A stretch of 64,000 bases of DNA from the NCBI RefSeq assembly GCF_018687715.1, contig NC_056758.1, positions 28,522,967 through 28,586,966 on the forward strand. The letters run 5' to 3'. The notes under the pieces were generated by a model that worked only from the letters and a program-made list of their open reading frames with translations, was not told the DNA's origin and searched no databases. Numbering within the stretch: the first letter of the stretch is position 1; every line of letters starts with the position of its first letter. The position numbers and the translations under genes were made by a program. This DNA comes from Carya illinoinensis (lineage: Eukaryota; Streptophyta; Magnoliopsida; Fagales; Juglandaceae). This document shows, in pieces, positions 5,106 to 55,800 of this stretch.

Positions 5106-7439
5106 TGTGATACCCCGTATTTTTATCGAATGATTATTTAAATTACTATAATTAGTGGTACTTTTATTTTAAATTAAACGTGTTTCTTGTTTATTGTTTT
5201 ATGATTTTTTTAAGTTGTGAGATTAAAATAATGTGTTTTCTTGATATTAATAATTATTTCACATTTAAAGTAATCTCTAGCTTGAATTGTTTTATTTGTT
5301 GGGCTTTAACTATTTTATTTTATTAATATTGAGTTGTAGTGTTTTTATTTGACTTTTATTTATTTTATTGTGCTCTTTATTTTAAATTAGTTTATTGTTG
5401 GATCTTATTATTTTATTTTACTAAGTCACTGCATTTAAATTATTTTATTTAAACTTGCTGTTTTAAAATTCATTTTCATTTGATCTATTTTTGGACCCAA
5501 GTTGTGAGGACTGTACCTCATTTTTTTCCCTCATCTTTTCTTTTTCCCTTTTTCTTTTTTCCCCTTTTTCTTTTTCTTTTTCTTCTCTTTTCTTTTTCTC
5601 ATTCTTTTCCTCTGCTTTTCTCCCGCACGACAACCCCTTCCTTCTCCCCTGTTAGTTCCATCTTCCTCTCGGCGCCATCACCACCCCTCCCACCTAGTTC
5701 CCCACCGGATGTCAACCTTTCCCCTCTATTTTCAGCCCATCTCACACCACCCATCTCCCTCACACACGACTTCAAGTTGGAACTCCATTTTTGCTCTCGA
5801 GTCGCCGTTTCTCCATCGTTCACCACCAGCTCTTCACCACACCACGGGTGACCTCCCAGCATCCTCCACCATGAAGCCCAACCCACAACCAACACTCCTT
5901 CCTCTTAAAGTAGCATAAATGTAGCTCCTCTTCACGCACGGGTTCCTTCCCGTAGCGTCGCTGTGACTCACCACACCACCTCACTGTCATCACCATCATT
6001 TTCTCCTCACACTGGTTCATCTTCCTAGCCTCCCTAGGTCCAACTGTGCCTCCACCGTCCCTCACTTTCCCTCACTCTCCCATAGCCTCTTTTCCTCAAA
6101 GTTGGCCAATCTCCTCTGTGTGCAGCCACCCACAATCACCAACCACCACCATCAACTCTATTGACCTCCACGAAATCCTCAATGGCCAACCCAAGCCTCC
6201 GTAGCTCCCCTTCGAAATTACCACTTTGAGACCCACGACCATAGTGCATTTTGCATTGTGACGTTGCATTTCCATCACCTTTTGTAGCTCATTGATCATC
6301 AAGAAATTATTTTTAGCACTGTAAGTATTTTCCAAACGACCTTTAAGATTTAAATATATGTTTGCATTAACAATAATTGTGATTTGGTTGGTTGTGCCGG
6401 ACTGAGTCCTAGGACTCAGGGGTCGGTTGGATTAGAGGACAGAGTTGTGTTTGTTGTTGATTGATGTTGGAAGGTATTTTTGGTATCTTGTCGTATGCAT
6501 TGCATAGTGCATACATGTTCATGTTTAAAAAGGGAAAAACAGATTTTTGTGTAATTGCATGCATGTTCATGTGCATATTTGGAAACTGAGTTTTTATACA
6601 AGAAATGATTTTGGAGGTGCTTGAAATGAACTGATTGAATTGTTTGATAGAGAGTCACTGTAGGGATGGTGGTAAGCAAGGATGGTGGTAGAGTCCCACC
6701 TGCGACTCCCGCCTACGGTGCACGCTTAGGGATGGTGGAAAGCAGAGATGGTGGTAGAGTCTCACCTGTGATTCTCACCTACGGTGCACACATAAGGATG
6801 GTGGTAAGCATGGATAGTGGTCGAGTCTCGCCTGTAATTCTCTCCTACAGTGCTCTGATGGTTTGGTATATGGGTCATTTTCTGGAAAAATGGTGGATGT
6901 TTTATTGGATTGGAAATGTTTTGTGCCAAAATGGGATTTTGGTGTGTGTGGAAAATGTGGATTTTTGGACCTCATGCATATGGCATCATGTTCATGCATA
7001 TTGTTGTTGCTTGATATATTTTTATCTTGTAAGCTGTTTTGATTATTACTTACCTGCGGTACCACCTTTAGTATTATAAATTTTGATGCAGATAATGAGG
7101 AGGCTGAGTAAGAGGAGGCGGCTTTGCCGGACAATTGATTGGAGTTTTGCTTGTATTATTTGAAAATGATTTCATTGCCTTTAAATTATGTATTTTGATT
7201 TCATGATGTTACTAAAAATTTGTAATATTTTGATATGCTTGTGTTTAAGCGAGGTTGTCTTTTAAACAAAATTCTGGTACTTATTTGAAAGACTTTTATT
7301 ACTCGCTGTGTTACTTTTGATGTACACATGTTGCATGTACACACACTTGGCGCTTGGCAATGGGATGCGTGACCTGTGTTGTCATCATCCCCACACTTCG
7401 ATTTCCACGTGTCCATACGTGGGAGTTAGGGGCATCACA
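5106..7439. mobile_element. Solo LTR of a long-LTR retrotransposon (copy 1)
   Basis: The unit begins TGTGATACCCCG and ends GGGGCATCACA, so it has canonical TG...CA termini with a short inverted repeat. The flanking 5-mers are AAACT (5101-5105) and GAACT (7440-7444), one mismatch apart. A related 2166-bp copy is at 53609-55774; shared blocks include a pyrimidine-rich tract, GTAAGTATTTTCCAAA, and ACTTACCTGCGGTACCA near the 3' end. No internal retrotransposon domain adjoins it, so it is best read as a solo LTR left by recombination. Gypsy origin is inferred from its size only. The open frames inside are compositional (Ser/Pro/Phe-rich). Confidence 0.7.
6662..6853. repeat. Three tandem 66-bp repeats inside the solo LTR
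   Basis: Units begin at 6662, 6728 and 6794 with RGGATGGTGGWAAGCA and contain GGTAGAGTCYCACCTG and CTACGGTGCAC. The period is a multiple of three, so an open frame runs through by chance. It is LTR-internal minisatellite structure; the unit is repeated directly without unique spacers. Confidence 0.85.
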
Positions 7440-19773: not shown

Positions 19774-19911
19774 TACTATAAGAAAACTGGTGGCGAATAA
19801 TTTTTTATAAAAATGATTATTTTCTATAAAAATGAGTTTATTTTAGTCGTAAATAATCATTCCTGTCGCATATAATCCTTTACAAATAGTATAGTCATTT
19901 TTCTTGTAGTG
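19774..19911. mobile_element. Small CACTA-type terminal-repeat element
   Basis: The right end TTTTTCTTGTAGTG is the inverse of a CACTACAAGAAAAA terminus. The left end TACTATAAGAAAACTGG matches it with a few changes. The centre (GGCGAATAATT ... TTTACAAATAGTATAG) is A/T-rich and could form a hairpin. A 3-bp duplication is not clear (ATA versus TAC). Likely a deleted CACTA derivative. Confidence 0.5.
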
Positions 19912-20462: not shown

Positions 20463-20768
20463 ATGGATGTAGTGACGAGGCTGGTGGCCGAGAAGCCTGT
20501 TGTCATCTTCAGCAAAAGCTCCTGTTCTTGCATGAGCCACTCGATCAAATCTCTTATAGCTGGCTTTGGGGCTAATCCTGCAGTTTATGATGTGGGTGGG
20601 ATCCCAAATGGACAGCAGATTGAAAGGGCACTGTCAGAAAGGGGGTGTCAGCTACCTGCAGTGTTCATAGGGCAAACTTTCATTGGTGGTACAAGAGAGG
20701 TCATGAGTCTCAACCTCAGGAGCGAGCTTGTCCCCTTGCTTAGAAGGGCTGGAGCTATATTTCTCTAA
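20463..20768 (+). CDS. CC-type (ROXY-like) glutaredoxin, 101 aa, altered active site
   Basis: Single-exon gene for a small plant-specific CC-type glutaredoxin. Proteins of this class act in cytosol and nucleus, use glutathione, and bind TGA bZIP factors to modulate transcription. The thioredoxin fold is complete: PVVIFSKS strand, active-site loop, NPAVYDV, LPAVFIGQTFIGG (the cis-Pro/GG glutathione-binding part) and LVPLL (an L..LL motif). The usual length is about 100-105 aa. Two features are odd. The active-site loop reads SSCSCMS, with one extra Ser between the two Cys compared with SSCCMS in the sister gene at 42474. The C-terminus ends AIFL instead of the ALWL type known to contact TGA factors. 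The start is the first ATG after a 5' leader and gives the family N-terminus MDVV. The reading frame is intact. Confidence 0.93.
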   Translation: MDVVTRLVAEKPVVIFSKSSCSCMSHSIKSLIAGFGANPAVYDVGGIPNGQQIERALSERGCQLPAVFIGQTFIGGTREVMSLNLRSELVPLLRRAGAIFL

Positions 20769-22474
20769 AGGCCAGCAAGGAAATGAAGCGTAATTAATAT
20801 ATATATATATATATAGATCGATCTGAATAAGGGATTTCCACTTTTTGCAAGAGGAAACGTGAAGTACTACTACTACTCATGATGAGAGGTTACCGATTTT
20901 TATTTTTGTGTCGGTCTTTCAAGTGCTAGCTTTTGGTCATATTAGTTATTAAGTGTTAAACTCCTTTTTGTTCAAGTTCGTTCTGAGAAATGTTTGACAT
21001 AGAATATTATAGCTAGCATAAAAATGCATGTGAATCTTTCACCGGCCAAAACATTTGCAGCTTCTTCTGATAATCTGGATTAATTAATAGTACTGGCCGG
21101 TAGTACGTACTGCATGTTCTGTGCAAACCATTTTGAAGTTTGCGCAACTAGAAATGCAAAGAAACAAGCGACCATACACGATTAACACATGAATGATTTA
21201 CCTTTGAAAGATAACCTTAATTAGATAGATGGCCTTAACTGAAAAATGTCGAGCAAGCGGAGACCAAATCAAGCTAGCTAGCTAATTTGGTCTTTTCTTG
21301 ATTGTATTTCCGCTGAATCACCAATAATTGGATTCGTGCATGATCACTAGTTTGGTGTTTCCTTGGCTGAGCGGCCTGAGCCTGCAGCTAGTTTACTAAA
21401 ACCACTGCGAATACAAGAGTTAGCGCAGCATGATCTGGGCCCAAACCAGCTATATATATGTTGCCAGGTTCAACTAAAGTTGTCATGTGATCATTGCCTT
21501 TGTCCTTTATTTGATTGAAGTCGGCCAAATGGGAACCTTACTCCTTAATCCCACACGTACCAGCCCTACGTTCATTTCATATGGGAAAACCAGAACTTTT
21601 GATCATCAACTATATATATGTGTGTGTGTGTGTTTCGAAAAATCAAGCCTATTTTGGAACTTAGTAATCATATACACCCGCGCCGGCCTAATTGATTCAC
21701 CGTGTATTATTGAACGAATGTCATGATATATATGTCTCTTTTGGGACATTTCATAAGAAATTCAACGATCTCCAAGATCATATATACAATGCAGCTCAAA
21801 AAACTTATTGTTCGGTTACGTTGTGCACTAACAAAAGCAAACCAAAATATAAATCTTTATTTTATTATTTTGTTCAAAAAGATAAGAATTCTATTTTTGG
21901 GAATAAACATCATGCAAAACTTAGAATTAAAAAATTGCTCTGAAAGAGCATGCTTTTGGGAGGAAAAATGAGAGTATAAAATACAGACTAGCTATTAATT
22001 ATAAGAATGAGTAAAACTATATAATAGATCTCATCCCAAAATTCTTATCTCATCTCATCCGGGCATCTGCTCCTTCTCAATTATAATTCAAATACAAAAT
22101 TTTTAAAATAATCATTACAAATTTCTCAAACTTTTAAATAAAAAATAAAAAACAGTTTAACTTTTTCAAATCCTATTACAAGAGGGTGTGTTGTCGGAAA
22201 AGATGTGGATTTTGTGAGAAAAAGTCTTTACTGACCAAATGGTTGTGTGGGTGGCTCGGGACTTAAAACTGAGGACTTTAGGTATATTTTCTCATGAAAG
22301 GTCTAATTCAGTTTTTTTTTTTTTTTTGGGGGGGGGGGGGGGGGGGAGGGAAGCAATTTTTTCCAAGAAATAAACTAGGACTATACTAACGGAAGAAAGC
22401 CTTGCCAAAAATACTCCATGAGATATCAATTCATGGTAAGAAATACAACATGTTTCCACGAATTGCATTGGTGG
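20769..22474. other. Intergenic DNA downstream of glutaredoxin gene 1
   Basis: No further gene recognised. A (TG)n repeat lies at 21618-21633. The stretch at about 22020-22170 (CTTATCTCATCTCATC and A/T-rich sequence) looks like a remnant of a MITE family also seen at 32690-32880. Confidence 0.55.
22312..22346. repeat. T16-G19 homopolymer junction
   Basis: Sixteen T are followed directly by nineteen G. The G run could form a quadruplex and is hard to sequence, so its exact length may be an assembly approximation. Confidence 0.85.
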
Positions 22475-22493
22475 GTACACTACAACAGATTGC

Positions 22494-23100
22494 ACTTTTC
22501 CCGGCGATTTGAAAAGTGGAAAAATCCCCGCCAAATACATATACCGGCGATTACAAAATCGCTGCATATTCGCCGGTACTATTCAGCCATTTCCGATATA
22601 CTGCGGCGGAAACTAAAAAATTGCCGCTAAAACTAACGGATTTCCCAGCAAGTTTTGACTCGCCGGCAAAGAAATTTAAAAACAGAAAGTCATTTGCCAG
22701 CGATTACAAAATCGCTGCCAAATCCTTTGCCAGCGATTTTTGAATTGCTGGCAAAGGAATTTAAAAACAGAAAGTCATTTGCCAGCGATTAGAAAATCGC
22801 TGCCAAATCCTTTCCCAGCGATTTTTGAATCGCTGGCAAATGACTTTCGGTTATTAAATTCTTTTCCCAGCGATTAGAAAATCGCTGGGAAAGGATTTGC
22901 CAGCGATTTTTTATTCGCTGGCAAATGTCTTTCGGTTATTAAATTCATTTGCCAGCGATTCAAAAATCACTGCCAAAGGATTTCCCAGCGATTTTTGAAT
23001 CGCCGCCATTAAATATCCTTTGCAGTTTTATCAGCCTATTCTCCGCGAAAAAATGGCCTTTTCCGGCGACATTTAATCGCCGCAAATAGTATTTTAAAAA
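22494..23100. repeat. CACTA left subterminal array of GCGATT/AATCGC palindromes
   Basis: About a dozen GCCAGCGATT or GCGGCGATT-type units in both orientations, paired as inverted repeats around short A/T spacers, often with GGCAAATCCTTT or CTTTCGGTTATTAAATTC between them. The matching right array is at 27290-27446. Confidence 0.85.
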
Positions 23101-23590
23101 ATAAAAAAAATATATAATACAGTTGAACCTATATGGCTGTTATAGCCTAAAACACACAACATCCTTATCATATAATTAAATCAACTTATTATATCTTGTA
23201 AATTCATCAAAATCTATATGCATGAATATAGATCATTCTCCTAGATCTAGACAACTCCACAGTAGTAGGCACATATTAGTGGATTTATAACCCTACACAA
23301 GATGGGCCAATCTGAACATGTAGTTAAACAGATCACCATAAGCAAGTAAACATTTTCTAGTAAGTACTACAAAAACCATATACATTTAGAACAAAAGCGA
23401 ATTTATATTTTTTACAAGCAAAACAAAAGCAAAGATACTAGGGCAAAAAGTAATTACAAAATGAGTAAGTAGGCAAAAATGATTATTCAAAGCTGAAATG
23501 ATCAAACAGAAGCAGAAAGCTGGGAAAGTTGTACCAGTCATGATAGATGCCAATCAATCCTCGCTCATATATGACACCCAATGTATTTTT

Positions 23591-24919
23591 CTAAGATATA
23601 GTGGGCACAACATTCATGACCCACAATTTGGGAGATTCAAGTGCAGCAGCAAAACTTCCTAAACCAGCATTCATGTCCATGATGTTGCGATACCTTCCAG
23701 AGTCAATGAGTTTATTAATCTTCTTATAAGCTTTCACATGTTTCTTCCATTTACTGTTGTCCTCCTGGTATGTCTCAACAGAAACTCCAGGAACAGATCC
23801 ACTAGAAATTCTAGGAGGAACAGAATAAAGCCTTTCTGGAAAGGCCTTCAATTCCCCACCAGCAACTTCATCTGGACTACTGACCACAGGGTATGGAGTT
23901 ATGCATGCCTCCATTTTCTCATACCTGTATGAAATACATAGCATCTTCTTAGGTGGAATCAAAATATAAAACATAATAACATTAAATAACTCAAAAGAAA
24001 ATATAGCAGTGTACATTGCTAGGTTAACAATACAGATGTTATTTGTTTGGATGATGGTAAAACCTGAGTTACCATCAATTTTTTTTAAGGCAATGCTCTA
24101 AAAGCATGCATACTAGACATTATCTAATTTGACATCTTTTGTCCTTATAATTTCTAGTTTGTTTCAATTTAGTACCTAAAATTTAAAAATTAAAATCAAA
24201 TCCTCGACATTTCAAACTCATTACAATGATATACTTCACTCTTTTAAACTTGCTGATATGGCTTTTTTTTTGCCAAACATAGTACATCGGAAGACTAGAT
24301 GGAATGTAAAATTTCAAAAAATGTCCATCTTCTAAAAGGACAACAAAAGAAGAAGAAACAGACAACTAAAGAGGAAAAACCAGATGAGGGCAGAATTTAA
24401 AACTTCTTATAAGTTACTGCTATGGCCATTTATTGATTTTTTTTCCCTGCAACAATAGTCTACCATACAACTTCAACAATAATCATGAAACGCAGTAAGT
24501 TTTATTGATCAGAGGATGACACTGCAACAATTTTAAAGGATTTACTTTTTTAATTTTGTAAATTTGACTGGATTGAAACTAGCTATAAATTATAGAGACC
24601 AAAAAGGTCTTGTACCCTAAATCCAAGGTCATTAATTTGGGTGGTGGTGAAACCTGGGTTACTCCCAAAACATATATAATGGATTAATATAAACTTGGAT
24701 GAACTCCAACATTTTGTTTTCTAAACACATGCATACCAGACATTATCTGCTTCAACAGACTTGTAAAGAGGAGTCTGCAAATCATCTTTTCTGCCACGAC
24801 ATGAATCAGCATTTAACCTCTTCCTCCAAATGGCAATTTCACCATTCTCATACTTCTTTTCCCAGCAAAGTAGTTTGGCAGTCTAAGAACTCGATCAACT
24901 TCCATCAGATAGATTCCAT
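23591..24919 (-). pseudogene. Captured PMT-type pectin methyltransferase gene fragment
   Basis: Minus strand, inside the CACTA element. Exon B (24919-24737) begins after TTCTCTTCACAG with DGIYLMEVDRVLR, then jumps directly to sequence equivalent to WEKKYENGEIAIW in a shifted frame, so a stretch of the normal gene is missing. A GT-AG intron (24736-23925) is retained. Exon C (23924-23591) encodes [27 protein letters not shown], and the AdoMet-binding segment [14 protein letters not shown], ending at a TAG where the family normally has Glu. Homology runs on past the stop to about 23517 ([16 protein letters not shown]). Intact members are Golgi type II membrane methyltransferases thought to act on pectin. 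This copy cannot make a functional enzyme. Confidence 0.88.
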
Positions 24920-26821
24920 CTGTGAAGAGAAATATATCAGATCCAGTGTCACATGATACTACAGTGCTGCCATCACAGTTTCAGTACAATATAAAGGTGC
25001 CATATAGGACAGGATGCAGGGGAAAGGTATGTATATATATAGCAGTACAGCGGTTCCTTAGTCTTGTTGACAAGACCATGCACCTCTTTCACTTTAAATA
25101 TTCATGCAGAAAAAGAGACAAATACATAGATAATTAATTACAAATAACTAAATAGAAAGCTGTTATTGGTGCAGCTAGCAATGGAGAGACATCTCATTCT
25201 CAACCTTGGATCTTTTTTCATGCATCTGGTTTAAAAAAGGTCATAATGAGTACTTAATTGAAATGATATTCATAAAGGAAAAATGGATTGGATGTGTAAC
25301 ATGGGGATGTGGTTGCCCAGAAACTAAGACTTTTTGCTTTACTTATATCTTGTGTTTAGTATTTTTTAAAGTTATTTATTGACTGATTAAGAACGATCCA
25401 TTAGTCATTCTTTGCCTGCTAATTAAAAAACAATATAGATGCTGATTGCCTTATTCATCACTTGGTGTGTAAGGAACCTAATTTCTTTGATATAAGCACA
25501 ATGAAAGGATAAGTGGTCGATGGATATTCTTAATTAAAAACAAGGAATAATACAAACCAGTTTTTATTTATTTTTTTCTGTGATGAGATCAGACAAGACA
25601 GATAATACAAACCATTACTAAAACATTAATTCAGTACTTGAGGCACATAAATTAAAGAAGATGCACAGGTAATTCATTGGCCACCTTATACCAATCACTA
25701 TCAATATTAGGAAGATCAGCTTTAATAAAACACCAGCTGTGAGATGGAGAAAGGAACCATCTTTAATTACTTGGCACAACTTATATTGCATTGATCTTTT
25801 TCTTTTGCTCCATAATCAACACAAACTTTTTAACAGGTTGATGATGAGTACCATCACCTCTCTTTTCTTCACCAGCCTACAGTAGTTATATATAATATGA
25901 TCTCTTTGGTAAATTTAAAATATGATCAGTACTATTCTAAGACCCCATTTCCAATAAGAATCAAGCTGAAAGAAACAGTTGTGAACATTTTATTTTGGGG
26001 GAAGGATAGGTAGGTTTTAGTTGAGATGGTTTTAATATAATGAAATGGGTAGATTCATGTATATTTCAAGCTTAAGGTCATTCATGAGAGTATTTTTATT
26101 CATATTCTCCTCCGTGGACTTCCTATATAAGAATATTTTTATTTTTTAATAATGATTTATTAAGGTTTTCACTGAGACTATGCAAGACTTATAAACAAAA
26201 ATATAGTTAAGATATATTTAATATTGATCCTAACTAAAATAACTAGAAATCAACTTTTATGATCTTGTAAAATTAGAAAAATATGAAGAAGTTAGTAGTC
26301 TAATAAATCTGAAACAGTTTTTAAAATCTATCAATTTGTCACTTATATGAGCTATCCCTACCTGAAGTTGGCCTATTTTTTCCTTTTAGGCGTTTAATAT
26401 ACGAAATTCATTCTGGCATAATATGTAAGAGTTGGTTTTTCCCCTTTACCAAATTAATATTTGTTCTTGTAGTTTGGTACATTTTCCTATAGGATTTTAA
26501 CTGTGAACTCAAATCTCAGGACAAATTTTGAACGGTTGTTTTGCAACAGTTCAAAAAACAGTTCGACCTTAAGCTTGCTCTTGATCTAAATCTATATATA
26601 AACACTAAAAACAGTAGTATTACACAAAGAAAACCAAGCCTTGTTTCCAAAATCGGCACTTAAACCGCAAAAGGCAAACACACAACATTTTGAACCAAAC
26701 AGAGGAACTAATACATCAATTTCGCATAAACAAAAATATTGACCAAAAAAAAAAATACAACTTTTGCAATGCAACCTACGCATGAAGGGGGAAAAACAAA
26801 TAAATTGGCAACAAGAGATAC

Positions 26822-27250
26822 CTGATCGGCTTGGAAATATTCCAAGGAGCAGATGACGATTATACTAGACTGCGGGCAAAAGTTCAACTTGGGAAATAAA
26901 ATGGAGGCACAGAACCTCAGTTGGAACGGAAGGAAACGTAGGGACAACATCGTTACTAGCCGAAACAAAGGGAAATTGATTTTTTCATTTTGGAGGTAGT
27001 CGAAAATGGAGAAGCAACAACGGAAGGGAGAAGAGTGTGGGAAAATAGGACAATGAAAACGAGGTATGGCTGAAGACAGAGGAGGTGACGCTGTGCGGAA
27101 ATGCTGGGAAGGGGCCAAATGCAGGTGCTCGCAATCGAGGGTCCGTCGAAGTGGGTGTTGGGGGGAAATGTGTTTGGTGGGGAGAAAAATGGTGGGTCGG
27201 GGGCGGCGGGGGAAAAATTAAAAGTACTGAGAGTTGGCACCCCGTCTAAA
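26822..27250 (-). other. Exon-like segment inside the CACTA element (possible captured 5' leader)
   Basis: On the minus strand this block is pyrimidine-rich and less A/T-rich than its surroundings. It ends at a plausible splice donor (CCGATCAG followed by GTATCTC). Short open frames exist but none resembles a known domain. Because it lies upstream of the PMT exons in the same orientation, it may be the 5' untranslated exon of the same captured gene; this is inference. Confidence 0.4.
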
Positions 27251-27289
27251 TCAACGTAGTTTTGAGCGTTAAGAAAACATGTATATGTA

Positions 27290-27446
27290 TTGCAGCGATT
27301 GACTATCACTGTAAAAGTTCAAATTAATGACCCCTCAATTGATTCGCTGGATTTTACTTTAAAAACTACGGCGATTTTTAAATCGCTGCAAAAGTGTGGA
27401 TTTCCCAACAATTTTATTGACAGCGATTAAAAAATCGCTGGAATAG
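27290..27446. repeat. CACTA right subterminal array
   Basis: GCAGCGATTGACTATCACTG, GGCGATTTTTAAATCGCTGC and CAGCGATTAAAAAATCGCTG are palindromic units of the same type as at 22494-23100, close to the right terminus. Confidence 0.85.
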
Positions 27447-27467
27447 GTTATATTTCTTGTAGTGGTA

Positions 27468-28869
27468 ATACCAAAAGTGATGGAAAGACTCTCTGGAAAT
27501 AAACGTCAGGCAATAGCTTCTCCCATGAACATAACCAGTGGGTAGAAGGCATTTTCCACAAATCTAAACTATGAGCAACACATATATATATATATATATA
27601 TAAGGCATTTTTTATGAAGCACACACGTTTGTTGCTAGATATATTATCACAACAACAGACCATTAGTAAAGGGCTTTTTCCACCAAAATTAACTTGTGGA
27701 TAGAAAATGCCTAATCAAGATCTTTTCCCACAAGTTGCCTTCATCCATAATAGTCATACATAATAAGTGAAATTTAATATCCAAATAATAAGCAAAAGAA
27801 TGTCTATATGAATGCAACTTTTTCACATGTTGCTCTATTCTTGTCATGTCCAATATACTAGGTGCATTGGTGAGTCTTGAAAACCATAGGAAAAATAACA
27901 CAAACAACAATTCATTCACAACATATCATTAGGTTCATTCCAGTGGGTTAACCAGTCAATACAAGATTTGCAAATACCTCAATGCAATCAAAGTGGGAAG
28001 TACAGAAGACACTGGTAACATGCATACTAATGTACAGTAATATTGTAAATCATAACATATACAAGTGTCTAACTACATGGTTTAGATATTTTGCAGGCTC
28101 TAGACACAACTCCCTCAACATTCCATGCTTAGCTAATGTTGAAGCTCCAATTCATGTCCACAAAATCTGGATGCAAAGCCTCTTCCAGCTCCACATATCT
28201 AAGAGACACTTAAGTACCTTGAAAAACGATGTTATAAACTGTATTAGCCAATACACATCTAATCTTACCTACTTATAAGACCAACTCTACAGCAAGGGAG
28301 ATAAAGTTTGATTCACACAAAGAATATGCAACATTATCATACAAAAATAGGGCCCTAATAACAATTAACATTGCTTTTGCACAAAAAAAAAGTTTATTTG
28401 GTGCAAACCACCACTTTATCACACCCTAAGACACATGCAAGTAAGGAAGCACACACAACCATAGAGTAAGGTGCATCTATGCCATGTGGTTCCCAAATAT
28501 GTTGAACAACCTACTAACAAGATTAACGCCAAATCATGATGTCAATGCCATGTACTCTATTATCATTTGGCACATAAAACATACAAGCCTCCACAAATCT
28601 TTTCACATATAAAAAGCAATTGGTTTTATATGGCTAAAACCCTTATACATACTTTCTGCCTTTATGCATTTTTACTGCCACAATTTGTGGTTTTCACCAG
28701 TAGTTTTTGAAAAGAAACATACTCAAACCAAAACTTCTTTAATCAACCTATTTTTAGGCTTAACCAAACCATCTCGTTAATATTATGATTTCCATATGCA
28801 ACACATTTTCTAGGATAACTCACAGTACATTTATTAAGTATCATCAAATATTTGAAATACTTGAAAACT
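27468..28869. other. A/T-rich intergenic DNA
   Basis: No gene or classified element recognised. A TA microsatellite lies at about 27584-27602. Confidence 0.55.
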
Positions 28870-33705: not shown

Positions 33706-36700
33706 TCAAATAAGCTGACAATCAAGCATGATATGCTTGGTCCTTTCATGGAATACCGGGTTAGCAGCAATGTAAAGGGCGGCTTGATTATCACAGTGTA
33801 GAAGAGCAGCTTGAGTATGTGAAATACCAAGATCTTGAAGTAAATACCGTAGCCAAAGTAATTCAGAACAAGTAGTGGCCATAGACTTGTATTCTGCTTC
33901 AGCAAAAGATCTGGAAACCACATTTTGTTTCTTGAATTTCCAAGAAACCAATGAATTTTCAAAAAAGATGCAGTGACCTATGGTTGACCTACGAGAATCT
34001 GGGCAAGAAGCCCAATCTGAGTCACAATATGCACGTAGTTGAAAAGTGAATGATGAAGAAAGTAAAATCCATCGTCCAAGAGCTACTTTAATGTATCTTA
34101 TAACCTTGTTAGCTGCAACCAAATAACTAGAGGAGGGTTTATCCATGAATTGACTCAACAATTGCACAGCAAAAGATAGGTCTGGCTGAAATATAGTCAA
34201 GTATAAGAGCCGACCAATCAATCTTCTATAAGTGCATGGTTCTTTGAGTGGAACTCCCTCTGTTTTGCTGAGTATAAAATTTCCATCAAGAGGAAGTTTA
34301 AGTGGGGTGTAGCAAAGCATTCCTGAATCTGCCAAAATATCTAAGGCATACTTCCTTTAAGAAATATAAATGCCTTTGGATGATCTAGCAATCTCTAAGC
34401 CAAGAAAGTATCAAAGCAGCCAAGGTCCTTAATTTTGAACTTATGATTAAGGAAAGTTCTAATGGAATTAATAGAAGCTTGAGAATCACTAGCAAGTAAA
34501 ATATCATCCACATAAACTAATAAGGCAATGAAAGAAGAACCATCTTGCTTTGTGAATAAGCTATAATCAGCTTTTGATTGGATAAAACCATATTCAAGAA
34601 GAGATGAGGTAAGCTTGCAATTCCATTGTCTTGATGCTTGTTTAACGTTATAAAAGCTCTTAAGCAATTTACAAACTTGGTGTGGCTGCCCCTTAGTATA
34701 CCCGGGTGGTTTCTTCATGTAAATCTCTTCTTGCAAATCACTATTAAGAAAGGCATTGTTAACATCAAAATGATGTAAATGCCATCCTTTGATGGCAGCA
34801 AGGGCAAGGAGACCTCTCACAGTAACAAACTTAGCAATAGGGGAGAAGGTCTCATGGAAGTCTATGCCCTCTTGTTGTGTGTATCCTTTGGCTACTAATC
34901 TAGCCTTAAGTCTCTCAACGGTTCCATCAAACTTAAATTTAATTTTGTAAACCTACTTACAATCAATGGTTTCTTTTCCATAAGGTAATTCAGTGAGTGT
35001 CCAGGTCTGGTTATTTTCCAGTGCTTCAATCTCAGCTTCCATAGCCTTACACCAACCAAGATCCTTCAAAGCTTGTCTATAAGAGGTGGGCTTGGTTTGG
35101 ACATAAATAGAAATAGTAAAAGCGAGAAAGGTAGGACTAAATTTATGATAAGATAAGCAATTATTTAAGGAAAAAGACTTACCACTAAGAGCAGGTGCAT
35201 TCCTGAAAATTGATTGTGCAGGGGGATCAAGCATGGTTTGAGAACAATGATAGTCCTTAAGGTACTGTGGTGCTGTTCAAATTCTGGTAGACCTCCTAAG
35301 AACAGGTAGGGAATGATTTAGAAGGGTGGGTGAAGTGGAGGAAGTAGTAGAAAGTGGTGGGGATGGAATTAGAGTAGGGGATGATGTAGGATGTAGAGAA
35401 GAAGGTGGCAAAGAAGTGGTGTTGGGAGGAGGTTCAGAAATGGGGGTATAAGAGTGAGGGTGAAAAATAGGTAAAGGTGATTGTGAAGGAGAAGTGGATG
35501 AGAGTTGTGATGTTTGGTGAAAAGGAAAAATGGACTCATAAAAAATAACGTCTCTTGAAATGAAAATGGTGTGGGTGGATAAATCCAATAATTTGTATCC
35601 TTTGGTGCCAAAAGGGTAGCCTAGAAAGACACACCTACGGCCTCTAGGATCAAATTTTTTTCTAGCATGTAAAAGGGTGGCTGCAAAACATAAAGAGCCA
35701 AAAACCTTCTTGTGGGCATATTGTGGATTTTTATTAAAAAGGATCTCAAATGGAGTCTTATTTTGTAAAATGGGGCTGGGAAGCCTATTTATGATGTAGG
35801 TGGCTATTAAAATACAATCACTCCAGTATGTAAGAGGCAAATTGGATTGGAACCGTAGTGCTCTAGCCACATTTAGCAAGTGTTGGTGCTTCCTCTCAAC
35901 AATGTCATTTTGTTGAGGGGTTTGCACACAACTTTTATGATGAATTATGCCTTTTTCATTGAAAAAATTGGTCATACAAAACTCAGCACCATTGTCACTT
36001 CTTAATATTTTAATTTTGAGTCCAAATTGTGTTTCCACCAAATTATAGAAGGAAGTAATGCTGGTTTTGGTTTCAGCTTTGGAATTAAGTAAGTAAACCC
36101 AAGTGGATTGAGAGAAATCATCCACTATGGTTAAGAAATAACGTGAGCCATCATAGGCAATAGTGGAATGAGATCCCCATAAGTCACAGTAGATTAATTC
36201 AAAAATCCTAGATGAAGTATGCTCACTGTGTGGAAAAAATAATCTGTGGAACTTGACAGGAGGACAAACAGCACAAGGAGTTTCATTAATATCAGTAAAA
36301 TGCTTGCTTACAACTGGATCAGAAATCTTTCTTAACCTATAACTGATAAATGGCCTAGGCAAAAATGCCATAGGTCAGATTGATTGACATTATTAATGAG
36401 AGAAGTGTGTGCAGTAAAAGATGTGTGAGCTAAAAGAGATTGAGTAAGGGCAGAAGGAGAAATGTCTGAACAGATGAAATGGTATAAACCATGCTTGAGC
36501 TCACCCTTCCCAATCGTTTTCCAAGAAGGCAGGTCCTGTATGAAGCAATATTGAAAGAAAAATAGCAAGCAACAAGTTAGGCTATGAGTCAACTTAGTTG
36601 CAGAGATTAAATTGAAAGTGAAATATGGGACGCAGAGAACATCCTTTAAAATGATGGTATTGGCTAATTAAACATTACCAATATGTGTTACAGGGGCTAA

Positions 36701-41095: not shown

Positions 41096-42334
41096 ATCAC
41101 CAAGTAGAGGCCAGGGCTTTTAGACAGGGGTTACATTCAAGGCAACCTCAGCGCCCTTGTGCATGTTGCTTATTACAGCATGATATTGATCATTCCAATA
41201 ATTAGTGCAATATTAATATTGATGGTGTTGAAATAAATAGGAAAAACATAAAGTACTAATTCACATTCTCTAATTGTCAAGCATCTTGTACTTATATCTC
41301 TAAATTGATACATGATTATATATCTTCAAATTATATCTCTAAATTATATAAATGCATTAATGGGTCATATTTCTAATAATAAGAGTATTATATATATCAT
41401 TAAGATTGTCATGTACTGATCTATTTTTCATTTTAACTGTCAAATTAATTAGATAATAATGTTATTTCTTTGATTTCTAATAGTTAGAAGCTGGGTCAAC
41501 ATCATTTATAATTTGTGGATTCTCAAGGAATCATTGTCTCCATCGTGTACGGTTTCTACGTACGTAGATTTTGTGCTATTTGGGGGCGAATCACTTTTCT
41601 TTTCTAAGCATATTATATTTTCAATTTACTCTTTTTCTTGTCTTTCAATTGCATGGCTTTCGGTTTTCCCGCATCACACTGAATGCGAATCTTGCAAGGG
41701 GAGAAAAAGTGCTTTCCAAATAGATAAACCCGACTTCCTTTATGATCGATCACTTTGGCAGATGCTTCAAAAATATAGATAGGTACGTGAGTTTCTATGA
41801 AGCGAAGGAAAACTGATCATGATTGATGAGAAAATCAAAGGGAAAAGGTGGAAGGAAAAACAATCTAACATACCTGGTACGCATGTTGAATCGATGAAAC
41901 GTCCTCATTTTAGGACCTTTAGATTATATCTTGAACGTACGGATCGACGTACCTTGAACATAAATTTAGCCTTTTCTATAATATATATTAATTGCACTTC
42001 TCTAAATGAGGCAATATATATATATATATATATATACGTACACATGTAAATGCATGCATATGTTTGCACCTTGTTATTCTCTGAAAGTATTAAAACGACA
42101 ATACCACTGCATGCACTTGGCTTATCCGAAAAGGATGGTTGGAGATGTTAACTGGCTGATTGGCAACGTATTATGAGTCCATTTCCATGGAAATAAGGAG
42201 GGTCTCTATCATGTAATCATGTATGAATAAGGTTAATTATCTGGGAATCCAATCACATATCTTCTGGAAAATTTTATTCCTTCTTAGTGCATGTATGGTT
42301 GTTCTATTCTAGAAAACAACACACCTTTTAGCAT
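41096..42334. other. Intergenic DNA upstream of glutaredoxin gene 2
   Basis: No gene recognised; short ORFs without domains. A TA microsatellite lies at about 42013-42036. It includes the promoter of the downstream gene, but no regulatory site beyond the TATA box can be supported. Confidence 0.5.
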
Positions 42335-42342
42335 TATAAATA
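42335..42342 (+). promoter_or_regulatory. TATA box of glutaredoxin gene 2 (putative)
   Basis: TATAAATA in the context CATTATAAATA, 139 bp before the ATG at 42474. Confidence 0.55.
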
Positions 42343-42473
42343 GACCTCCATGGTATTTCAAGCTCTTCACTACAACTAAGCACCACATACAACTCATTTG
42401 CAAAAGAAGATCTCCCGGCCCGACATTACGTACGTACAATTTCAGCAGTCTTCTAATTACTGTTTTGGCATTA

Positions 42474-42794
42474 ATGGATACTGTGGCAAGCTTGGTGGGT
42501 GAAAGACCAGTGGTGATTTTCAGCAAGAGCAGTTGCTGCATGAGCCACACCATCAAGACACTCATAACCGGGTTTGGGGCTAACCCTGCGGTGTACGAGC
42601 TTGATCAGATGTCGAATGGACAGCAAATTGAGGGGGAACTGCTGCAACGAGGTTGTCAGCCAAGCGTTCCTGCTGTTTTCATAGGGCAGCAGCTCATTGG
42701 TGGCGCCAATGAGACCATGAGTCTCCACCTCCGGAATGAGTTAGTCCCATTGCTGATGAATGTTAAAGCTATATGGCTGTGGAAGAAAAAGTAA
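42474..42794 (+). CDS. CC-type (ROXY-like) glutaredoxin, 106 aa
   Basis: Single-exon CC-type glutaredoxin; the class binds glutathione and TGA bZIP factors in cytosol and nucleus. The active site is the canonical SSCCMS. Other landmarks are [30 protein letters not shown] and the L..LL motif LVPLL. The C-terminus reads AIWLWKKK, so the TGA-contact-type AIWL is followed by a short basic extension absent from gene 1. The frame is open from an ATG at 42291, but that stretch contains the TATA box and the proper family N-terminus [10 protein letters not shown] begins at 42474, so the later start is chosen. About 60-65% identical by eye to gene 1 at 20463, with which it probably forms a tandem pair. 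Confidence 0.94.
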
Positions 42795-49864: not shown

Positions 49865-52800
49865 CTGCTCAATAAAAAATACCTCATAAACTGAGCAAAA
49901 ACTTGAAATTCAAAAGCATGGAATCCTCAAGTACCTAACAAGAAACACATTTGAACATAGAAACAAATCAGAAGCCACTGAAACAGTTGGTAGCAGTAGT
50001 TTCTGTCAAAATGGATTACAATTCGATGATCCTTTTTCAGAGGATTTATCCCCCTTATATAGAACATATTTACATATCTATGTATTGTCTAGTTTGAGCG
50101 GGAAGAGCCCCTAAAATTACGCCTGAGGATTTAGATTACAGCGCCGTATGTAGCCTCCCTCTATTTAGCAGTGTTGACCAGCCTCCCTCTATTGCAGCGC
50201 CGTATGTAGCCTCCCGTATGGACTGTTTGTACGTTGACAGCCCCCCTCAAATTGATGCCCGTAGATCAACAAGCATCAATTTGCTACTTAGAAAGCAATG
50301 TCGATGACGAGTGAGAGCCTTGGTGAAAATATCAGCAATTTGGAGTTCAGTAGAAACATGTGGAAGAGTGATAATACGAGCTTCAAATGCTTCACAGATA
50401 GAGTGACAATCGACTTCAATATGCTTCGTGCACTCATGATAGACAGGATTGGCCGTGATCTGAATAGCACTCGTATTATCGGCATGTAGAGGTGTGGGAT
50501 CGGTCTCAGAAAAATCTAGCTCAGCAAGCATACCTCGAAGCCAAATAATTTCAAAACAAGCTAAAGACATCGCTCGGTATTCAGATTCTGTAGATGACTT
50601 AGAAACTCGGTCTTGCTTCTTACTTTTCCAAGAGACCAATGCATTACCTAAGAATACACACCAACCAGTGATGGAGCGACGTGTATCCGCACAACCAGCC
50701 CAATCAGCATCGCTATAAGCAGCCAGACGAGTCGAGTTGCCGGCTGGGAAGAATAAACCACGAGCAGAAGTGCCATTAACATATCGTATGATCCTACGAA
50801 CAGCAGCCAAATGAAGATGACGAGGAGTCTGAAGAAACTGACTGACTTGCTGTACAGCAAAAGAAATGTCGGGTCTAGTAATAGTGAGATAAACAAGGCT
50901 ACCCACCAACTTTCGATATAAACTGGGATCAGAAAGTAAGTCACCCTCTTCTTTGCGAAGCTTGACATTTAATTCCATAGGAGTATCCACAGAAGTAGCC
51001 TCCTGTAGACCAGCTGTAGCCACCAAGTCACTAGCATACTTATGTTGATTGAGTGAAATACCAGAGGGACTACGATGCACCTCAAGACCAAGAAAATATG
51101 TGAGAGATCCAAGATCCTTCATATGAAAGGACTCTAAGAGATGAGTCTTGAGCTGGCCAAGTAAGACAGAATCGGAACCAGTGATCACAATATCATCAAC
51201 ATAGACTAAAAGAACAACAATACCCATGTCTGATTTCCGAAGAAACAATGAAGTATCATACTTGCTCTGCTTGAATGAAAATTATAATAAAGTTGTGCGG
51301 AATTTATCAAACCAAGCCCTCGGAGCCTGTTTGAGACCATAAAGAGAGCGACAAAGCTTACACACATGTGAAGTTGGAGAGCTGAACAATCCCGGGGGTA
51401 GCTTCATATAAATACACTCTTTAAGATCTCCGTGAAGGAAAGCATTCTTAACATTCATCTGATGTAGTGGCCAATCACTGGAAGCAGCAAGAGCTAGAAT
51501 CATACGAACAGTAGTCATTTTAGCCACAGGAGCAAAGGTCTCTTCATAATTGACACCATATTCTTGATTATTCCCTAGTGCAACAAGCCGAGCTTTGTAA
51601 CGATCTAAACTTCCATCAGATTGGATTTTGACTGAATAAACCCATTTGCAACCCAGAGGAACAATGGTGGGAGGACATGGCTCAATGTCCCAGGTGTGGT
51701 TGGCCTCTAAAGCGTCAATTTCTTCCTGCATAGCTTGTCGCCAACAATCATGCTTGACAGCTTGTGAGTAGCATGTGGGAATATCAAAATTGGATAATGT
51801 AGTAGTAAGAGCAGAGGCAAACCACCCATACCTATCCGGAGGTACTGATACTCGAGAAGAGCGACGTACCAAGTGCTCTGAAGGTGCTGCAACTAATTGA
51901 TCCTGGAACATGGTAGGATCAGATATTGGTTGAGCCACCGGAAGAGACTGTGAGTGGGAGCGTCTTGTATACACAATACCTGGTTTAAAACGGGAGCTGA
52001 CTGGATGAAGATCTGAGAACTGCTGTTCAAAAGATGGGAGGACCACAGTAGAGGAAGAAGGTATAGAAGACACAGGAAAGAAATGTTGATTTTCAAAGAA
52101 AATAACATTCCGAGAAATGCGCATACGATGTAAAGTGGGATCATAGCAAACAAATCCCTTTTGACACACATTATATCCCAAGAATGCACATCTAACAGAT
52201 TGAGCAGATAATTTATGTCGCTCATGAGGAGGTAAATGGACAAAACATACACAACCAAAGATACAAAGATTATCATAACTAGGTTGTTTAGCAAACAAGC
52301 GAAAATATGGAGACTCCATGTGTAAGACTTGGGAAGGTAAACGATTAATCAAGTGAGTAGCAGTTTTCAGAGCCTCGACCCAGAACATGGATGGAACAAA
52401 TGATTCTAACAAGAGTGTACGTACCATATCAAGAAGATGACGATTTTTGCGTTCGGCTACTCCATTTTGTTGGGGAGTAGCAGGACATGAACGTTGATGA
52501 ATAATACCTTTAGAAGCCAAGAATGCTTGAAACTCAGTAGATAAATATTCACCACCAGAATCTGTGCGTAATGTTTTAATAGTCGCAGAGAATTGATTGT
52601 CAATATACGCAAAAAACTCGGTGAAAGTACGAAAAACCTCAGATTTAGAGCGAAGAAAATAAACCCAAGTGAATCTGCTATAATCATCAATGAAAGTCAC
52701 ATAATATTTAAATTTTTCACGTGAACTAACCGGGGAAGGTCCCCAGACATCACTATGGATAAGATCAAAGCAGTGAGAAGCTCTACTAGCGTGTAACGGA

Positions 52801-55800
52801 AATGGAAGAATTTTACTTTTACCAAGTTTACAAGAATCACATTGAAGAGATAAAGAAGAACGTTCTTCGTTATCAAGAAAACCCGAGTGCAATACATGAG
52901 ATAAAATCTGAGCATTGGGATGACCTAAACGACGATGCCACATCATACTCAGAGTTGGAACATTATGACAAGTAAAGGACTTAATAGACGAAACTGAAGA
53001 AAGTAGTGGAACAGGTAAAAAGAGTGGAAATAAACGCCCCACTTTAGGTCCCTTCGCGATCGGCTTCCCCATTACCTGGTCCTGCACAACACATCCATCA
53101 CCAGAAAAGTGAACAGCACAGTTGTTATCAACTAATTGACCAACAGAAATAAGATTTGTGGAAAGTTGAGGAGCAAGAAACACATCAGTAAATTGAGGAG
53201 AGGCATCTCCGATAGCAGCTATTGGCAAGGCACTACCATTGGCAGTCTGAATGGCAGATTGACCAGCATAGGGCCGAACATGACATAGAGCAGTAGGAGT
53301 ATTCGTCATATGATTAGAAGCACCCGAGTCTACATACCAGAGTTTAGTTGTATTTTTACCTTGAAACCCCATTGCAGATAATGCCGAAATCAGCATTTGT
53401 TGCACCATTTCTGGTGTACAGTAATTTGTTGCAGGAGGTGCAAGATCGGAGGAAGCACCTGAGGAAGAGCCATGTGCTACAGAAGTTTGAAATGCTTGAG
53501 CCTGACGATTCTGGGGACGTATACGACAGTCTTTGATAATGTGACCCTTCTTCTTGCAATAAGAACAGTATTTCTTAGGACAATTAGCAGCAATATGCCC
53601 GTATTCCTTGTGATGACCCGCTTTTAAGTGTATTTTCGCTTAAATGGTCGTTTTTATTTTAATTAATATATTAGTTTATTATTTTAATTTATTTGCGTTT
53701 TAAAATTGATTTTTGATTTAATTTAATTTATTTGAGGTTGTGTTTTATTTCTTTAAGTTGTTTTGTGGTTTTAATCTTTTTGGCGGTTTGTTTCGTTTTC
53801 CCGGAGTGAGGATTGGACCTCATCTCTTTTCACATCTTTTTTCCTTTTTTCTCTTTTTCCTTTTTTCTTTTTCCCTTCTTTTCCTTTTTCCTTCTTTTTC
53901 TTTTTTTTTTTCTTTCTTTTTTTCTTTTCTCTTCCTCTCTCCCGCGTTCGGACCCCCCCCGTGCTCTCTCTCTCTCCTCCCTCTCCCCCGCGCCGGCTCT
54001 CTCTCTCTTCCAGCCCATCGTCGTCCGGCCACCAACCGGACCCCCACCGGTCCCAAAAGTTCCCCCTCCCTCCGGCGCACCACCCCTCCGAAAGCCACCC
54101 CCAACCGGCCGGCCATTTGGCCGGAAAAAGCCCAACAAGGCCGCACGGATTTCACTCCGATCCGCCGCCGTCGCTCCACCTCCGACCACCATTTCTTCAC
54201 CACTTCATCACCGACTCCTTGCCGTCCTAACCCACCCATTTCCGGCCTCCAACGACCACCGGAACAGCTCCTACGAGCTTGTTTTCTGATTTGCTATTTT
54301 CGGCCATTTCCGGCGATTCCGCCGCCACCCACGGCCGTCCGTCGCTTCCAATAGCTTCACAACCATCCCTAGACCATTCCCTATCAATCTCGTGTCCTAG
54401 TTTGTCCCCGTTCAAAAGTGGGTTTTTCAGACCCACGGCCACAGTGAATTCACTATGACGTTGCTGTTTTTCCGTCGTTTGCAACGCCGCTTGTTTTCTA
54501 AAATTGCCGTATAGCGCTGTAAGTATTTTCCAAACCCTATTTTCAGATTTTAATATATATTGCTCATTCAATTATTTACTGTTGTTGGTTGTTGATTCCA
54601 GACTGAATCCGAGGAGTTTCGGGGGTCGGATGGATGGAGGACGGAGTTGTCTGTTTAATTGATTTATGTTGGTTGGTTATTTTATTATGCATTGATTTGG
54701 CATTTCATGGTGCATGCATGTGTGTTTTTGTTCACGTGTGAAAAGCCTGTGTATTGGCGTGAGTGGTTTTACGGGTGCGTGTGTATCACGAGCCCAAGCC
54801 GGGATGGGTTATTATCTCGGTGGAGCTCCTCTGGTCACTCGGGAGCGGAATAAACTGAGTGATGTCCCCTGAGTTGTCGAGAAAGATGACGGGAGCGGGG
54901 CTAGGGGATGTTTGGCTACGAACGCGCCGGGCGCGGAACCGGGCATCGCCCTACTCACCGACTCCGTGGCCCTTCGCTGGCGAGGGCTAGAGGATGCTTG
55001 GCTACGCACGCGCGGGGCGCGGAACTGGGCATCGCTCGTTAGGTGTCACATGCGTGGTGGTACTCTACGGTGTGACACTGGAGCCAGGGTGTGCGGATGA
55101 CCCCTAGGGGAGGTCATGGTGCATACGGTTAAAATTGGATAATGGTTTATGAGGCCAAATGGGACTTTTGGCGTGGGCCAGATGGACTTCTGGCGAGATA
55201 TTGGGCCGGATGGACTTCCGGCGAGATATTGGGCCAAATGGACTTTTGGCGGCCAAATGTGACTTTTGGCGTGTTTTTCGGAAAGGATATGTTTTGGGCC
55301 AAACGGGTTTTTGGCGTGTGTGGAAAACTTGGGTTTTATGGGCTTTGTGCATTGGGCATGGTTCATGCATCTTGTATGAGTTTTATGTGTTTCTATCTGG
55401 TAGTGTTTGGGGTTTTACTTACCTGCGGTACCATTCGTGGTTCCGTAGCTTTTGGTGCAGAGTTAGAGGACGAAGAGGAGGAGGCTGAGCCCGAGGATGC
55501 GGCTCCGCTGGGTTGCTGATGCTATCTTTTTATTTGTTTAAAACTGTATTCGTGTTTTGTAATATTTATCTATGTACGTTTTAAACAGCTTGTATTACGT
55601 TAAGAAAAATTCTGGTACTTAGTTATGACTTTCTTTATCCGCTGCGTGTTTCTCTGTACACATCTGTTGCCTTGCACACACTCGGCACCCGTCGATGGGA
55701 CGGTGACCCGGGTTGTCACCATCCGGACGTCTCAATTTTCCCGTGTTCGGGCGTGGGGATTTGGGGGCGTCACATTCCTTGCAGCAGAAACACTGTAAGG

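Follow-up and report, generated by a model that had tools for sequence, protein, structure and literature searches.

CACTA transposons that carry pieces of host genes have been described in soybean, Arabidopsis, rice, maize and Chenopodium. In soybean, the 5.7-kb CACTA element Tgm-Express1, situated in the wp allele of F3H, gives rise to spliced chimeric RNAs (PMC1947982), and a 2026 review raises the possibility that DNA transposons acquire pieces of unlinked genes by a route not yet discovered (PMC13317346). Here we describe a complete, non-autonomous CACTA element of 4987 bp (22478-27464) in a window of the Carya illinoinensis genome, the window being the whole stretch of 64,000 nucleotides analysed, which is part of contig C7 in the searched assembly (674 Mb, 17 contigs). 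The element is very probably a transposon of the Pack-CACTA kind in which 1.78 kb, copied from a whole PMT-type gene on contig C5, lies between two CACTA arms known also from PMT-less elements, and which then multiplied; uptake by faulty repair and mobilisation in trans are proposed.

The PMT element is Pack-CACTA or Tgm-Express-like, and its kind is already known. Like Tgm-Express1, it is a CACTA element with host-gene material in which exons, introns and splice sites are kept. Tgm-Express1 holds five host-gene pieces and lies within a gene intron, whereas one host gene is recognised in the PMT element, around which an interrupted gene was looked for in nearby open frames only; unlike the soybean case, however, both the donor and PMT-less relatives are identified here (PMC1947982). 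With the Pack-CACTA or Pack-TYPE elements of Arabidopsis, rice and maize it shares CACTACAA ends, a target duplication, internal host exons, no detected transposase and multiplication as a unit after capture, but the origin by tandem insertion that is proposed for those elements (PMC8903248) is no more than a possibility here, and its donor is whole. Chenopodium CACTA elements likewise hold gene fragments, although there the AP2 pieces precede the coding region, in elements with transposase domains (PMC8978399). The parts of the PMT element and its insertion site are as follows (strand given where one applies).

22360-22477 and 27465-27590: flanks of the insertion, part of an interspersed repeat; at least five diverged relatives occur elsewhere in the genome
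22475-22477: left copy of the target site duplication, GTA, 3 bp; a single GTA in 5/5 related empty sites
22478-22485, plus strand: left terminal inverted repeat, CACTACAA
22478-23249: left CACTA arm; the match with the PMT-less elements L014, L015 and L016 ends exactly at element base 772
22640-23003: subterminal tandem array of palindromic units, period 85, from Tandem Repeats Finder (TRF), repeats and folding
23250-25027, minus strand: captured PMT-type gene piece (exons 3 and 4 with intron 3 between them, and parts of introns 2 and 4 on either side)
23535-23924, minus strand: donor exon 4, 390 nt, from tblastn, translations of three copies and the donor, and PF03141; ends set by GT/AG, to within a base or two
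23925-24736, minus strand: donor intron 3, GT and AG ends kept
24737-24919, minus strand: donor exon 3, with a 112-nt deletion at about 24880
25028-27464: right CACTA arm; identity with PMT-less elements on C12 and C10 is about 97%
26820-26824, minus strand: possible splice donor CAG/GT of a putative leader exon running from the right end toward the PMT exons
27368-27447: right subterminal palindromes, families D1 and D5
27457-27464, minus strand: right terminal inverted repeat, CACTACAA
27465-27467: right copy of the target site duplication, GTA

The element has the three characters of the CACTA superfamily, namely terminal inverted repeats, a 3-bp duplication and subterminal arrays. A previous reading of the DNA, made from the letters alone (hereafter the sequence-only reading), had placed inverted CACTACAA ends and the GTA duplication at exactly these positions and had described palindromic subterminal arrays; the latter are borne out by the left array, for which TRF gives 4.3 copies at 84% matches, and by further palindromes at the right end. 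Folded as RNA, 22630-23015 reaches -203.5 kcal/mol (z -24.7), a value that none of 100 shuffles equalled. By itself CACTACAA is weak evidence, with six matches in the window against 1.86 expected, the others lying at 5334, 19904, 38672 and 42368; outside the element, the window has no similarity to it at E 1e-3. At 19904-19911 (minus strand), CACTACAAGAAAAATGAC resembles the end of another CACTA family.

Related sites elsewhere in the genome support insertion. A query of both flanks joined with one GTA (238 nt) was searched against the genome and all seven candidates were scored; besides the window, the joint matched at five places (C4, C16, C5, C11 and C10) at 73-85% identity. All five aligned sites read GGTAATACC with a single GTA and without the element, those on C4, C10 and C11 having unrelated small insertions farther along, so that the window flank belongs to an interspersed repeat, relatives of which retain the site in its empty state. 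End sequences were examined for 18 elements, comprising the window element and 17 loci, with C2b, L035, L036 and L037 outside this set. Every one of the 13 elements in which both ends could be placed is flanked by identical 3-bp sequences (GTA in the C7 window element, AAG in the C9 copy, and likewise L014-L019, L024, L026, L027, L028 and L034), the probability of a chance match being 0.02 per element. In the remaining five, the left end is missing from its expected place and the flanks differ (C2a and L025), or no right end occurs within the stretch read (L029, L030 and L038). Some ends are mutated: the C9 copy terminates in TTGTAATG and L026 begins CAGTACAA.

The cargo comes from an identifiable gene. 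The sequence-only reading had recognised two PMT-family exons on the minus strand with a retained GT-AG intron, and both features stand, its exons B and C corresponding to exons 3 and 4 of the donor. The shortened exon 3, joined to the part of exon 4 that precedes the stop, matches Pfam family PF03141 (Methyltransf_29) at E 2.8e-47, the piece after the stop does so at E 2.3e-6, and the start of exon 3 at E 0.013, below the cut-off; a PDB search at E 1e-3 gave no match. Alignment to the PMT paralogues of the same genome, which that reading had proposed as a way to the donor, found by genome DNA search a PMT-type gene on C5 (locus L011, C5:16457500-16467400), still in place and whole, and redrew the limits of the piece at 23249/23250 and 25027/25028. 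Within these limits, 23250-25027 matches L011 5321-3686 at 98.0% and 3577-3431 at 99.3%, with 29 of 1776 aligned sites differing (1.63%), compared with 24.5% against the C6 paralogue. Six exons of the donor, spanning L011 2347-7185, were delimited by eye on the basis of its open frames and splice sites, and each is represented in both the C6 and the C11 paralogue. Donor exons other than 3 and 4 were not found in the 64-kb window (tblastn, E 0.01), and both of those found lie inside the element; since these alone were found, the capture extends from a point within intron 2 to one within intron 4. The splice sites of intron 3 are identical in the C7, C9 and C2a copies and in the donor. Exon 3 measures 183 nt against 295 nt in the donor, with a 4-nt overlap at the deletion, and the loss of 112 nt therefore shifts the frame, in keeping with the internal deletion that had been described. 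Two further observations concern this stretch. Intron 3 contains a 38-nt direct repeat (24097-24134 and 24720-24757) with inverted sequence between its copies, which is older than the capture because the donor aligns along the whole stretch. In the donor, exon 4 (L011 4648-5037) has a derived Gly-to-Val change, MNAGLG to MNAVLG, at a position that we take to be in the S-adenosylmethionine-binding motif; Gly is retained in the C6 and C11 paralogues and in the captured copies.

At least four PMT-carrying copies exist, the counts from this search being lower bounds. In addition to the window copy (C7:28545444-28550430), the search for further copies found three more, on C9 (9337896-9342891) and as two neighbours on C2, C2a (437805-442805) and C2b (434469-437770), the last inverted and without most of the left 1.69 kb. 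Both junctions of the C9 and C2a copies are the same as in C7 but at different sites, C2b having the right junction only, and the 112-nt deletion is common to all four copies. The captured part differs by 0.39-0.93% between copies and by 1.46-1.86% between copies and donor, and the three full copies agree against the donor at 24 sites, of which the C6 outgroup assigns 10 to the element side and 6 to the donor side, leaving 8 unclear. Because the deletion and these 24 differences are common to the copies, capture and deletion preceded multiplication. The Glu-to-stop change in exon 4, which the sequence-only reading had counted among the features of the capture, is real (TAG at 23591-23593) but falls outside the capture event, since it is private to the window copy: the donor, like the C9 and C2a copies, has GAG there, both of these copies retain an open exon 4, and C2b is without that part.

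These data bear on whether the element's ends merely flank an old PMT pseudogene or local duplicate that came to lie between them by chance. Broken exons would suit such an origin, and the sequence-only reading had held that PMT exons in place without CACTA ends would speak for it; instead, all five related sites are without both the PMT piece and CACTA ends, exons 3 and 4 are the only PMT exons found in 64 kb and are confined to the element, and the same junctions recur at other sites. We therefore reject this explanation. Overall, gene capture by a CACTA element, inferred earlier from the window, is directly supported by the donor, three other copies, PMT-less relatives with the same arms, and related empty sites.

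How the piece was taken up is less firmly established. We favour gap repair with template switching: a break inside a CACTA element may have been followed by repair that copied the donor piece (abortive gap repair, a mechanism for which PMC8978399 names Rubin and Levy), with the template presumably switched at short shared words. Loss of 112 nt from exon 3 preceded the spread of the chimera to at least four places, which produced 3-bp duplications at C7 and C9, and the stop in the window copy arose later; movement is probably driven in trans by a CACTA transposase made elsewhere. The right arm is matched by the PMT-less elements L024 (C12) at 97.2% and L025 (C10) at 96.6%; at the left junction the switch from arm to donor lies at GACAAC, which is present in the donor, and at the right junction the donor has only GG in common with the PMT-less elements, as seen in five of them (L024, L025, L026, L029 and L030).

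A number of observations weigh against our reading, most of them against its repair step. The left arm matches L024 at 89% over the first 516 bases and L025, which is without a recognisable left end, at 83%, and its best matches are L014 (93.5%) and L015 (93.1%) over 772 bases, elements with a different right arm; in the unique part of the left arm the values are 90.2% for L024, 93.9% for L025 and 95.1% for L015. Since the best left-arm and right-arm matches are different elements, either the true parent is outside the list or two elements were combined, and a tree of left arms, weakly supported near C7, leaves an origin from one element or from a hybrid unsettled. GACAAC occurs in only four of 14 aligned PMT-less left ends (L017, L018, L019 and L025), L024 reading GACAAT, L014-L016 reading TATTCAAC and the other six differing around the site, and a match of two bases, as at the right junction, is what chance alone would give. 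The arms diverge more between copies (right 1.0-1.3%, left 2.6-4.2%) than does the cargo (0.4-0.9%), and the C2 pair, taken as one unit, is flanked by AGT and TAC without a matching duplication.

The hybrid-like arms, left closest to L014-L016 and right to L024/L025, would also be expected from tandem-insertion capture, the 2019 model of Catoni and co-workers that PMC8903248 and PMC13317346 describe as proposed for Arabidopsis Pack-CACTA elements. Under this model, two CACTA elements inserted in introns 2 and 4 would have lost their inner ends, and the outer ends would have carried the exons away as one element; it differs from gap repair in the uptake step only and a similar product is expected. 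Two family members do lie side by side in the C2 pair. The donor, however, is whole, with no CACTA arm at the breakpoints or at E 1e-15 in the 29.9 kb around it (L032, L011 and L033), an absence for which an uninserted allele could account, and L024 carries both arms, which means that a fusion is not required. We consider tandem insertion a credible but rather unlikely route, and continue to favour gap repair with template switching.

We next consider the likely behaviour of the element. No match to a transposase (TNPD or Transposase_21) was found in it, in line with its non-autonomous status: six-frame translation of the right arm (stops read as X) gives no Pfam domain at E 0.01, and the four non-PMT peptides searched have no Pfam match at E 10. 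Because the right arm is without a Pfam domain, the element would depend on transposase from elsewhere, and Transposase_21 is common in the genome, with all 150 sequences scored, the best 150 of 2420 candidates, passing the cut-off. The possible leader splice site was found in nine of 18 scanned sequences, CAG/GTATCTC being kept in eight of the nine and L026 having CAT/GT; judged from this arrangement, a leader exon read inward from the right end would be spliced, in the sense orientation, toward exons 3 and 4 of the PMT piece. The window copy shares 290 of 372 21-mers of exon 4 and 86 of 163 of exon 3 with the donor, against 34 and 25 with the C6 paralogue, exon limits in this count being off by a base or two. 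The sequence-only reading had raised small RNAs against the parent gene, and since many 21-mers are identical the donor could be matched by any such RNAs that are produced. No working enzyme is made from the cargo, which is likely to be silenced along with the element and spliced into chimeric RNA, and may perhaps also act as a seed of small RNAs.

Spliced chimeric RNAs from Tgm-Express1 (PMC1947982), the open exon 4 of the C9 and C2a copies, and the retained splice sites, including the possible leader site, would be compatible with captured exons that have a selected role in exon shuffling or in control of the donor. Given the frameshift in all four copies and the private stop in one, we regard such a role as highly improbable.

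Sister elements carry other gene pieces. A piece of 3-isopropylmalate dehydratase type occurs in five elements (on C3, C13, C9, C11 and C10); a peptide joined from several of them matches NF001614 at E 3.4e-25, far below the full-length cut-off, as a fragment should be, the piece in L029 matches PF00330 at E 3.2e-7, and three other places in the genome match at 90-98% and are possibly the genes. L014 holds a piece of V-type H+-pyrophosphatase (TIGR01104, E 5.8e-12, below the full-length cut-off), with related readings in L015, L016, L024 and L025, and L025 also holds a piece of SPT16 (PF24824, E 2.4e-19; PF08512, E 5e-9). An SPT6-like piece in L026, L029 and L030 was recognised by eye only and has no Pfam match. 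The CACTA family of the window element captures gene pieces often, at least three other genes being represented.

In the neighbourhood of the element, the window contains glutaredoxin-like open frames, named by eye, at 20463-20768 (plus strand), 1.7 kb from the element, and at 42288-42794 (plus strand), about 71% alike in DNA over 286 columns. Long reading frames of Ty1/copia type, also named by eye, at 51282-53639 and 33706-36374 (minus strand) belong to ordinary plant retrotransposons.

The two PMT-carrying copies on C2 (C2:434469-442805; L031 and L010) form an inverted pair, left sides together and right ends outward, with 3303-bp arms that match at 98.9% and no N in either stretch. In the right arm the C2 copies differ from each other at 29 of 2442 sites and each differs from C7 at 24 of 2436; since their mutual divergence equals that from C7, the pair is no simple assembly doubling. 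RNA from either right end would be expected to fold into a hairpin whose stem takes in the arm, exon 3 and portions of introns 2 and 3. The nearest precedent is Mu killer of maize, in which transposon sequence is duplicated in inverted orientation and for which a hairpin RNA has been proposed (PMC3440606); the C2 pair is likewise a long inverted duplication of transposon sequence but, unlike Mu killer, in which transposase sequence is duplicated, consists of CACTA arm and host-gene exon. It is conceivable, though improbable, that the pair is a natural hairpin locus, the double-stranded RNA of which (exon 3 in sense, then antisense) would silence the CACTA family and, in trans, the C5 donor.

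Among the matches listed in the open-licence literature, outside of which subscription papers lie, no title or opening of an abstract concerned this PMT capture, and the PMT-carrying member, its donor and the serial captures of the family appear to be unreported within the literature covered. Because a single assembly provides the donor, the PMT-less relatives, the junctions, the four daughter copies and the empty sites, the route of uptake is testable in this family, and with fragments of at least three further genes in its members, many junctions would become available for comparison. Transcription of the C2 pair, if it occurs, would also make it possible to ask whether gene capture turns transposon silencing onto a host gene; if the hairpin proposal is true, the pair would be a transposon killer built from a gene-capturing transposon, with the host gene as bystander or target.

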